A DNA stretch of 64,000 nt from Sphingosinicella ginsenosidimutans (GTDB lineage Bacteria; Pseudomonadota; Alphaproteobacteria; Sphingomonadales; Sphingomonadaceae). Of this stretch, positions 6,424-61,714 are shown in pieces. The notes under the pieces were generated by a model. The model searched no databases. It saw only the letters and a program-made list of their open reading frames with translations, and was not told the DNA's origin. The stretch is from NCBI RefSeq assembly GCF_007995055.1, contig NZ_VOQQ01000001.1, positions 1,843,001 to 1,907,000 on the forward strand, given 5' to 3'. Positions within the stretch are counted from its first letter, which is position 1, and each line of letters opens with the position of its first letter. The translations under genes and the position numbers were made by a program.

Positions 6424-7395
6424 TTACAGGTTGAAGCCACGCACCACGCGGAGCCCGTCTCCGCTCAACTCCACCAGCGCGACCGGAACGTCGTTGTCGG
6501 TCGCAAGATGGAGCCCCGGCTGTGCGGCGATCCCGGTCAATATTCGCCCCTGGCGGAGCGCCCCTGCCTGATCCGGGGTGACGGGTAGAGCCGGGATGTC
6601 GTCCAGCCCCGCCGTCAGCGGCAGGAGATAGTCTTCAAGGCTGCGCGCCTTAGCGGCTTCGCTCAATTTGTCCAGCGAAATCGCGGAATCGAGCCCGAAC
6701 GGGCCGGCCCTGGTCCGTCTCAACATGGTGACGTGGCCGACCGTATCAAGGGCATGGGCGATGTCGCGGGCGAGGGAGCGGATATAGGTGCCCTTGGAGA
6801 CATGGGCCGCGAGCGTGACCGCCGCCAGTTCCTCCCCGCAACGGGGAGGGGGACCGGCGCAGCTGGTGGAGGGGGCCTGGAGACCCGCCCCGCCCCGGTG
6901 GCCGCCCTCCTCCCTCGCCCCACCGGCGAGGATTGCGAGCTGGCGCACCGTCACGTGGCGGCTCGCCAGTTCGACCGCCTTGCCTGCGCGCGCCAGATCA
7001 TAGGCCCGCTCGCCACCCACCTTCAGCGCCGAATAGGCCGGCGGCACCTGCTCGATCGGTCCGGTGAAGCGGGGGAGGACCGCCTCGATCCCGGTCCGGG
7101 TCGGGCGGTTGTCCGACGTCGCGACGACGGTCCCTTCCGCGTCCAGCGTATCGGTTTCGGTCCCGAAGGCGATCGTGAAGTCATAAGCCTTGTCGCTGTC
7201 GAGCATCCGGCCCGAAAGCTTGGTCGCCTCGCCGAGCGCCACGGGCAGCACCCCGCTCGCCAGCGGATCGAGCGTCCCGCCATGGCCGACCTTCACCTTC
7301 GGGTAGCCGCCCTCGCGCAGCGCGCGCTTCACCGCGCCGACCGCCTGGGTCGAGCCGAGTCCCACGGGCTTGTCGAGGATGAGCCAGCCGTTCAT
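6424..7395 (-). CDS. truB: tRNA pseudouridine-55 synthase, with an in-frame repeat insertion
   Basis: A 323-residue enzyme that makes pseudouridine 55 in the T-loop of tRNAs. The catalytic motif GHGGTLDPLASG contains the nucleophilic Asp43. YSALKVGGERAYDLAR (~121-136) and SKGTYIRSLARDI are also conserved. Residues ~154-189 do not belong to the family: they are Gly/Pro/Arg-rich and encoded exactly by a palindromic repeat pair at 6829-6934. The family sequence resumes at ELAAVTLAAHVSKGTY immediately afterwards. The reading frame is kept, so the enzyme is probably functional with a surface-loop insertion. It is the penultimate translation gene before rpsO, and its ribosome binding site is weak. 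Confidence 0.96.
   Translation of the reverse strand: MNGWLILDKPVGLGSTQAVGAVKRALREGGYPKVKVGHGGTLDPLASGVLPVALGEATKLSGRMLDSDKAYDFTIAFGTETDTLDAEGTVVATSDNRPTRTGIEAVLPRFTGPIEQVPPAYSALKVGGERAYDLARAGKAVELASRHVTVRQLAILAGGAREEGGHRGGAGLQAPSTSCAGPPPRCGEELAAVTLAAHVSKGTYIRSLARDIAHALDTVGHVTMLRRTRAGPFGLDSAISLDKLSEAAKARSLEDYLLPLTAGLDDIPALPVTPDQAGALRQGRILTGIAAQPGLHLATDNDVPVALVELSGDGLRVVRGFNL
6829..6934. repeat. Paired palindromic repeat (REPIN-like) inside truB
   Basis: Two hairpins in inverted orientation. cctccccg (6831-6838) pairs with cggggagg (6842-6849), followed by gggacc...ggtggaggggg (6850-6876). On the other side cctcgcc (6913-6919) pairs with ggcgagg (6925-6931). It belongs to the same family as the copies at 44501-44556, 44931-44990 and 61577-61714. 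It is about 105 bp and in frame with truB. Confidence 0.85.
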
Positions 7396-44500: not shown

Positions 44501-44556
44501 TTCCTCCCCGAGCTTGTCTCGGGGAGGGGGACCATGCGAAGCATGGTGGAGGGGCC
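44501..44556. repeat. Palindromic repeat, left border of the DUF559 unit
   Basis: The hairpin cctccccgag (44503-44512) / ctcggggagg (44518-44527) is followed by gggacc, a small inner palindrome (atgcgaagcat) and ggtggaggggcc (44545-44556). The last part holds GGAGGGG 8 bases before the DUF559 ATG. It is inverted relative to the copy at 44931-44990. Confidence 0.85.
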
Positions 44557-44562
44557 CGCGCC

Positions 44563-44994
44563 ATGCTGAAGAACATCGCGCCCACGGGATCGGCGAGAAC
44601 GGTGCGAAGGGCACGCCGCCTCCGACGCGACATGACCCTTCCCGAACTGCTGCTGTGGCGGGCGCTTCGAGCCCGGCCCGGCAATCTCAAATTCCGCCGT
44701 CAGCATCCCACCGGCCCCTTCATTCTCGACTTCTTCTGCAGCGACGCACGCCTTGCGATCGAGATCGACGGCGAGGCCCATTCGCGCGGCGACCGGCCCG
44801 AGCGCGATGAGCGGCGCGATGCCTGGTTGCGGACGAGCGCGATCGAGACGCTGCGGATCCCGGCGAGCGAGGTCCTCAACGATCCTGAGGCCATCACGAG
44901 ATACATATTCGCGCAAGCCATGGCCCGCCTGCCCCTCCACCACCCGGCTGCGCCGGGCGGTCCCCCTCCCCCAGACAAGCTGGGGGAGGACTGA
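44563..44994 (+). CDS. DUF559 (Vsr-like) endonuclease-fold protein bounded by repeats
   Basis: A 143-residue protein with a basic N-terminus (RTVRRARRLRRDMTLPELLLWRALR) and a PD-(D/E)xK-type core (FRRQHPTGPFILDFFCSDARLAIEIDGEAHS: Asp in FILDFF, Glu-x-Asp in IEIDG). This is the DUF559/Vsr-related nuclease fold. The family has no fixed function. It lies on the plus strand inside the minus-strand liuB-liuD operon. Its ribosome binding site lies in the left repeat, and its last ~20 residues (from about 123, Pro-rich, ending DKLGED) are encoded by the right repeat. It may be a mobile or selfish unit (inference). Confidence 0.85.
   Translation: MLKNIAPTGSARTVRRARRLRRDMTLPELLLWRALRARPGNLKFRRQHPTGPFILDFFCSDARLAIEIDGEAHSRGDRPERDERRDAWLRTSAIETLRIPASEVLNDPEAITRYIFAQAMARLPLHHPAAPGGPPPPDKLGED
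44931..44990. repeat. Palindromic repeat, right border of the DUF559 unit
   Basis: gcccctccacc followed by an inner palindrome and cctcccccag (44965-44974) / ctgggggagg (44980-44989). Its reverse complement aligns along its whole length with 44501-44556. It codes for the C-terminus of the DUF559 protein, whose TGA (44992-44994) comes immediately after it. Confidence 0.85.
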
Positions 44995-61000: not shown

Positions 61001-61578
61001 TGCTGAAGCCGCATTATCCGGCCGCGGTCGTCGCCGGCAATGTCGAGACCAGCCAGGTCGTCACCGATGCGCTGCTCGCCGCCTGCGGCGCGCTCGCGCC
61101 GAGCCAGGGGACGATGAACAATTTCACCTTCGGCGACGAGCGCCGCCAATATTACGAGACGATCGCCGGCGGCGCCGGCGCCGGCCCGGGCTTCGATGGC
61201 GCGAGCGCGGTCCAGACCCACATGACCAATTCGCGGCTCACTGATCCTGAGATCCTGGAGACTCGCTTTCCGGTGCTGCTCGAACGTTTCGCGATCCGCC
61301 GCGGATCGGCCGGGGAGGGCGCGCATCGCGGCGGCGACGGGGTCGAACGGCATGTCCGCTTCCGCGCGCCGATGCACGCCGCGATCCTTTCCAACCGCCG
61401 GCGGGTCGCGCCGCGCGGGATCGCCGGCGGCGGCGACGGCGCCGCCGGGGTGAACAAGGTGGTGCGCTCCGACGGGCGCGAGGAGACGCTCTCGGCAACG
61501 GCGTCGGCGGAGATGGCCGTGGGCGACATGTTCGTGATCCTGACGCCGGGGGGAGGAGGCTATGGCGCGAGTGAATGA
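58078..61578 (+). CDS. ATP-dependent 5-oxoprolinase-type hydantoinase A/B fusion
   Basis: A 1166-residue cytosolic enzyme. The HyuA half (~1-650) starts [14 protein letters not shown] and has the ATPase-like [11 protein letters not shown] and [14 protein letters not shown]. The HyuB half (~660-1160) starts [20 protein letters not shown] and has [35 protein letters not shown] and [21 protein letters not shown] loops. It ends [11 protein letters not shown], typical of OPLAH. It hydrolyses 5-oxo-proline to glutamate with ATP; a hydantoinase activity is the alternative. The stop is followed directly by a paired repeat, then DUF969/DUF979 genes. Confidence 0.88.
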
Positions 61579-61714
61579 TCCTCCCTGTCCGCGAAGCGGA
61601 TGGCGAGGGGGGCTGCGCGAAGAGCGGTGGAGGGGCCTGCCGATTCCGGAAGGCCCCTCCGCCATGCGTCGCATGGTCCGCCTCCCCATGAAGCTTGGCT
61701 TCACGGGGAGGATT
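61577..61714. repeat. Paired palindromic repeat (REPIN-like) between oxoprolinase and DUF969 genes
   Basis: Two inverted copies. The left is 61577-61637, from cctccctg to ggtggaggggcc. The right is 61652-61714, from ggcccctccgcc to the hairpin cctcccc (61681-61687) / ggggagg (61705-61711). The 14-bp spacer is tgccgattccggaa. It fills almost the entire gap. GGGGAGG lies 8 bases before the DUF969 ATG. Confidence 0.85.

Follow-up and report, generated by a model that had tools for sequence, protein, structure and literature searches.

Why does a small nuclease gene lie between inverted copies of one palindromic repeat inside an operon for leucine degradation? The question is raised by a stretch of 64,000 nucleotides from Sphingosinicella ginsenosidimutans (the window; NZ_VOQQ01000001.1, positions 1,843,001 to 1,907,000), in which a DUF559 gene occupies the junction between liuB and liuD. 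The original prediction, made from the letters of the window, took gene and repeats together for a minimal mobile or domesticated unit, comparable to repetitive extragenic palindromic (REP) elements and their RAYT transposases but with an unrelated protein. The analysis presented here strongly supports an association of DUF559 genes with flanking inverted repeats that extends well beyond this locus, whose parts are the following.

44502..44554, plus strand: left repeat, with hairpin 1 at 44503-44527, hairpin 2 at 44531-44547 and a G-rich tail at 44548-44554 toward the gene
44548..44554, plus strand: GGAGGGG tail of the left repeat, resembling a Shine-Dalgarno sequence and 8 nt upstream of the ATG
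44563..44994, plus strand: DUF559 nuclease gene, 143 residues, Vsr/EDxHD-like fold
44932..44990, minus strand: right repeat, inverted, with the tail at 44932-44938, hairpin 2 at 44939-44961 and hairpin 1 at 44965-44989

All that had been claimed of the layout is present in the sequence: the gene stands between two inverted copies of the repeat in the liuB-liuD junction, on the strand opposite to liuB; the left copy supplies GGAGGGG at the predicted distance from the ATG; and the right copy encodes roughly the last 20 residues, the C-terminal tail of the protein, with the TGA (44992-44994) directly after. The gap between liuB and liuD, given as 580 bp, measures 583 nt, and the naming of both genes agrees with a Sphingobium record in which genes in the same order are so annotated. 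The outer inverted arms (44502-44533 and 44959-44990) are 32 nt long and 94% complementary, and a second pair lies at 44544-44560 and 44926-44942. Each repeat folds as single-stranded DNA into two hairpins and a tail (z -5.4 and -3.7), better than all 200 of its shuffles. When flanks were scored by the match of the left flank to the reverse complement of the right, with a score of at least 18 taken as a pass, the window gene reached 26, compared with a maximum of 14 at 1,507 control positions of the window; CCTCCCC hairpins occur four times in the window and not at all in 100 shuffles. Because both flank score and hairpin count exceed their controls, inverted repeats by chance are excluded here.

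Bracketing of DUF559 genes by inverted repeats

The source genome (3.04 Mb) contains four DUF559 genes, all of them between inverted palindromes, which belong to three sequence types. A flank score of at least 18 was found at 19 of 21 DUF559 positions versus 5 of 9,647 sliding controls drawn from 20 stretches of 20 kb and the window, and these controls rule out chance inverted repeats of GC-rich DNA. Bracketing of any nuclease gene is likewise ruled out, as none of 27 HNH control loci passed (three short loci were left out). DUF559 is present in 44 of 60 genomes of relatives, in up to 10 copies each. In a set of 114 unique DUF559 loci (123 before removal of duplicates), consisting of the best loci of the searches (L001-L033, L054-L083) and others hand-picked from the same lists (L034-L053, L114-L153), 76 have such inverted repeats beside the gene. 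The flank test was passed by 50 of 56 loci in the family of the window, 2 of 5 elsewhere in the order and 24 of 53 elsewhere in the class and phylum, so that about half fail there. A single scan of named loci began with 80, from which four at contig ends and one pass caused by a run of Ns were dropped; 38 of the remaining 75 scored at least 18, versus 2 of 3,798 control positions. Bracketed named loci include those of Luteimonas, Pseudoxanthomonas, Bradyrhizobium, Azospirillum and Methylotenera, and others occur in metagenome-assembled genomes labelled Nitrospira, Desulfobacterota groups and Chloroflexota, in which contamination is possible.

Two findings would have told against the original prediction: homologues generally devoid of flanking repeats, and the same gene fixed at this junction with ordinary borders in distant relatives. 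The counts of bracketed unique and named loci dispose of the first, and at the junction in relatives the repeats themselves form the borders of the gene. No link of DUF559 or GIY-YIG genes to flanking palindromes was found in the titles, abstract openings and selected passages of the literature searched, which comprised no preprints and few subscription papers.

Unit layout and gene-less pairs

The unit consists of repeat, DUF559 gene and inverted repeat and measures about 450-570 bp. A start could be placed in 67 of the 76 bracketed genes, with a purine-rich stretch before it in 52. The open reading frame enters or crosses the downstream repeat in 60 of the 76, of which 40 stop at most 30 nt beyond the repeat, and stops before that repeat in the other 16. 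Pattern searches of 464 kb gave 72 hairpins. Where a pair spanned a DUF559 gene, its tails pointed inward in 11 of 16 cases (two were direct, and three gave no clear orientation), and the same held for 10 of 14 gene-less neighbours within 150 nt (one direct, three without clear orientation, none with tails outward). Bracketed genes and dispersed gene-less inverted pairs are thus both found, as in REPtrons. Three gene-less pairs of one genome have a common spacer, with scores of 51.0, 43.8 and 42.6 over 60-61 nt, compared with 21-38 for other pairs, which implies that the pair has multiplied. The window holds two further repeats of its own type.

61571..61714, no strand assigned: gene-less inverted pair of the window repeat type with a short spacer
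6830..6874, plus strand: single repeat of the window type within a truB-like open reading frame (6424-7395, minus strand)

The single repeat is read through in frame and forms part of the truB-like protein.

Mobility and history of the copies

Two convergent genes of genome G231 are separated by a rhizobial copy (L062), an insertion of 568 bp whose 101-nt arms differ at one position. When its flanks were joined and searched against 119 genomes of the genus, 117 matched and 69 of these aligned in one piece; the best 30 of the 69 uninterrupted sites span 77-136 nt over the printed stretch and contain no such unit. The nearest relative, G533, carries the same DUF559 type at this site with more repeats. 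Among 20 fetched sites with a longer spacer, a gene-less pair of a different type is present in three (L312, L316, L317) and a further repeat pair beside another gene in one (L304); one of the rest ends at a contig end, four were not delimited by the anchors, and the majority of the others contain different genes or sequence. A rhizobial repeat type, CCTTCTCCCC..GGGGAGAAGGTGG..GGATGAGGGG, was noticed in L304, L071 and L079, and it brackets DUF559 genes in the latter two; this type may resemble the rhizobial RIME elements. An apparent absence of the unit from some Azospirillum replicons was discarded, as all 7 Azospirillum records among the matches listed align over the unit.

Homing offers one alternative account, in which the nuclease cuts gene-less pairs or empty sites and break repair inserts the gene, while the repeats spread by other means. 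Gene-less pairs multiply as units, however, and at L062 gene and repeats were inserted jointly into a site at which no such unit is present in the relatives read, so that homing appears unlikely. A second alternative, that the repeats are the terminal inverted repeats of an ordinary transposon moved by an unrelated transposase encoded elsewhere, with DUF559 as cargo, would account for inverted ends and for short gene-less versions. Against this, no general target-site duplication was seen over 73 loci, where the longest shared word averaged 4.01 versus 3.89 and words of at least 7 were shared in 4 of 73 versus 1.6% expected, a slight excess. Moreover, the individual ends form a hairpin and a tail of their own, and DUF559 is the bracketed gene in many genomes with different repeat types. 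Transposon ends are therefore a very improbable explanation.

The history of the window copy was traced through 30 loci fetched by liuB. DUF559 lies just downstream of liuB in 10 of them, in three of which, the window included, it is opposite to liuB; one locus has DUF559 upstream, and two (L085, L087) have a gene-less inverted pair. Two further loci are tight, with gaps of 8 and 13 nt, and the remaining loci have other genes or were not resolved. On a Sphingobium plasmid, liuB and liuD are separated by a unit of the window repeat type, next to a small hypothetical gene. Because other species and this plasmid have the unit at this junction too, the window copy is probably an old, settled resident and no recent guest. 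An independent arrival was hinted at by a first tree with weak support and was not upheld by the approximately unbiased (AU) test; a single ancestral liu insertion is not rejected (p-AU 0.25). The changes of orientation at the junction fit recombination between the inverted repeats or re-entry. In this genus, other small genes of 200-750 nt are often present between liuB and liuD (L113, L086, L096, L098, L099, L101, L102), and since they are frequent and unrelated the junction looks like a tolerated insertion spot.

The DUF559 protein

The 143-residue window protein matches PF04480 (E 5.9e-25), and its only Pfam matches are DUF559, MTES_1575 and DUF2726. Its structure model resembles Vsr/EDxHD structures, and E28, D56, E67, D69, H73 and D82 are invariant in 26 aligned sequences; the protein thus has both the fold and the active-site residues of this group, with the correspondence to the residues of Caulobacter VsrA assigned by spacing only (PMC12907096). 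A protein search returned 1,303 relatives at E up to 1e-5; among the best 120, the 119 others are 138-191 residues long, mostly 143, and LPLHHPA and GPPP near the C terminus are kept in 16 of 16 fetched homologues. Because lengths and tail motifs of the relatives agree, the repeat-encoded C-terminal tail is no accident of one reading frame. The protein is under purifying selection, with a ratio of nonsynonymous to synonymous substitution rates of 0.04-0.31 in 10 of 12 hand-picked pairs, namely those without saturation. A search of defence and phage libraries gave weak matches only (DpdF, E 1.1e-4; an HNH phage family, E 5e-4).

Repeat types, protein clades and repeat load

Repeat type clusters with protein clade. 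Repeats were typed by simple motifs and set against a protein tree (122 rows, 100 columns; poorly resolved in places), on which 38 changes of type were counted, compared with a mean of 73.8 after shuffling; none of 200 shuffles fell to this value. Type C, to which the window repeats belong, accounts for 18 rows; 15 fall within one clade of 17, and the three outside look mistyped by motif when judged by eye. Even the copies of the source genome differ in type according to clade (L001; L003; L002 with L004). Near relatives inherit both repeat and protein, and for this reason the clustering does not prove recognition.

Nuclease and repeats also co-occur across genomes. Matches to the hairpin pattern per genome correlate with DUF559 counts over 60 genomes (rho 0.83) and within 25 genomes of the genus (rho 0.63); a backward control pattern gives 0.45. 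Outside the family, the order is represented by 24 genomes: the 7 with strong DUF559 have 21-72 matches and the 17 others, two of which carry weak DUF559 matches, have 0-6; the split between high and low holds within families f2 and f4. In family f49 (79 genomes, probably Enterobacteriaceae), at least 5 BoxC-tail matches were present in 7 of 8 genomes with strong DUF559 versus 3 of 71 without, a contrast that is inflated because 29 of the 71 are at most 2.0 Mb. Across Pseudomonadota, with the source genome excluded, up to 3 mismatches allowed in the type-A pattern and DUF559 accepted at E up to 1e-12, at least 5 matches occurred in 39 of 85 genomes with DUF559 versus 10 of 213 others.

Should DUF559 be a Vsr-like repair nuclease, the repeats might merely hitchhike, gathering through local breakage or through structures on which it acts. 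Such a role is suggested by VsrA, a Caulobacter protein with a DUF559 domain that is reported to be SOS-induced and required for the SOS response in cells without ScmA (PMC12907096), and triplex motifs have been tied to instability (PMC4666352). Bracketing that is two-sided and inward-facing, repeat types that cluster with protein clades, several copies per genome and the gain of a whole unit at L062 all speak against it, and hitchhiking is accordingly judged quite improbable.

Repeat shape and triplex motifs

In hairpin 2 of type C the letters vary and the pairing is kept, with at least three outer pairs in 17 of 32 distinct inner sequences versus 7% for shuffled partners, and its loops are often of the GNA kind. 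Among 135 ends with a detected hairpin, 118 have a tail that is a mirror image of the G arm when A may be matched by A or T; the proportion is 57% with tails taken from loci of a different arm and 13% with shuffled ones. In this scoring the left end of the window unit passes (6/8) and the right end fails (5/9). A tail that mirrors the G arm is the rule of a purine intrastrand triplex. Most repeat ends follow one plan, a hairpin with a G-rich tail mirroring the G arm, which is the plan of BoxC/PIT/TM, and the repeats are of, or close to, a kind already described, the BoxC/PIT/TM intrastrand triplex motifs (PMC4666352). According to that paper, these motifs occur in more than 260 genomes, the E. 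coli motif is reported to form a triplex in vitro, and its copies lie beside no transposase or integrase remnants, their spread being left unexplained; neither DUF559 nor ycjD appears in its main text, and no associated gene is named.

In E. coli MG1655, ycjD, annotated as DUF559, lies at 1,351,407-1,351,760, and motif copy no. 9, listed at 1,351,239-1,351,204 in PMC4666352, is 168 bp downstream. Degraded-looking repeat copies were noticed between ycjD and this BoxC/TM copy (L269, 5204-5761). In the median E. coli genome a BoxC-like 44-mer occurs at 19 places, and ycjD was found in 3,365 of 5,426 E. coli genomes. It could not be treated as a clean insertion polymorphism, as the three opened strains without ycjD carry eef efflux genes at the site, in line with PMC12817139.

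Free-standing GIY-YIG genes

A parallel layout surrounds free-standing GIY-YIG genes of the same genomes (L154-L177). A flank score of at least 18 was reached at 19 of 24 loci, two of the 24 being truncated by contig ends and one of the 19 (L173) being situated among dense repeats, where a score of 28 is found at a control position as well; none of 6 GIY-YIG domains in long frames, taken as UvrC, passed. The palindromes around these genes differ in sequence from the DUF559 repeats, as in GTCATTCCCGCGAAAGCGGGAAT. One such locus lies in the source genome.

G000:C1:2590594-2590809: free-standing GIY-YIG locus (L160)

At one liu junction (L107) a GIY-YIG-like unit was noticed beside a DUF559-type repeat, the nature of the reading frame being judged by eye. 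A brief literature search found no paper on bracketed GIY-YIG genes. The parallel layout suggests a wider principle.

Interpretation and comparison with known systems

Bracketing, the clustering of types with clades and the related empty site support the original view of a minimal mobile or domesticated unit, REP/RAYT-like with an unrelated protein. That view is refined here in two respects: the window copy appears to be of long standing at its junction and not newly arrived, and the repeats prove to be of, or near, the known BoxC/PIT/TM kind. On balance, these units are probably widespread minimal elements, REPtron-like, in which a PD-(D/E)XK nuclease of Vsr/EDxHD fold replaces the HUH transposase. 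We infer that the nuclease drives the spread of the repeats: it may recognise a folded single strand of its own repeat, as a hairpin or possibly a triplex, and would nick or cut that strand, whereupon repair could copy the repeat pair, with or without the gene, into new intergenic places. More broadly, and with the chances about evenly divided, small homing-fold nucleases (DUF559/EDxHD and, in parallel, free-standing GIY-YIG) may be the missing spreaders of several common palindromic families of bacteria, E. coli BoxC included. They would then form a counterpart to RAYT/REPIN, with each nuclease lineage recognising its own repeat in the form of folded single-stranded DNA.

Several observations weigh against this interpretation. 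Of the unique DUF559 loci, 38 of 114 fail the flank test, and clear repeats flank E. coli ycjD and the A. brasilense copy on just one side. The empty site of L062 is one locus, seen between species and not strains, and the clustering of types on the tree reflects in part plain descent. In the genome counts, G113 and G226 (phylum count) are not clearly above their own backward control, G013, G232 and G420 carry repeats without a DUF559 match, and G012 and G034 carry the gene with one pattern match each. Finally, VsrA of Caulobacter was itself reported as a probable repair enzyme (PMC12907096).

DUF559 is thus a candidate spreader of a common repeat family of unexplained origin, and its association with the repeats makes the question of their spread testable in E. 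coli K-12 through ycjD. In comparison with other Vsr-like/EDxHD nucleases (E. coli Vsr, I-Bth0305I, 3hrl and Caulobacter VsrA), the window unit shows no methyltransferase partner, intron or extra DNA-binding domain. With BoxC/PIT/TM, of which the E. coli type reads CCCTCGCCCC..GGGGAGAGGGTTAGGGTGAGGGG, units of the window type share a C arm, a G arm and a G-rich third strand that mirrors the G arm, as well as inverted pairing and intergenic location. Unlike BoxC/PIT/TM, the window type has a hairpin 2 of about 20 nt between G arm and tail, longer than the 1-6 nt allowed for either loop in the ITxF search (PMC4666352); repeat types A and B have short second loops. REPtrons, as described in PMC8266576, resemble the DUF559 units in having a small nuclease gene inside inverted hairpin repeats, dispersed gene-less inverted pairs, a repeat class tied to protein lineage and no clear target-site duplication. 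The GTAG (or CGTC) that marks the hairpin foot in RAYT/REP systems (PMC8266576 and PMC3733652) is found at neither window repeat, where the tail mirrors the G arm instead, and the protein is a PD-(D/E)XK Vsr-like nuclease and not an HUH (Y1) transposase. If the nuclease does spread the repeats, the unit would be an autonomous element of very small size, and the principle of REPtrons would have arisen more than once, with unrelated nucleases.
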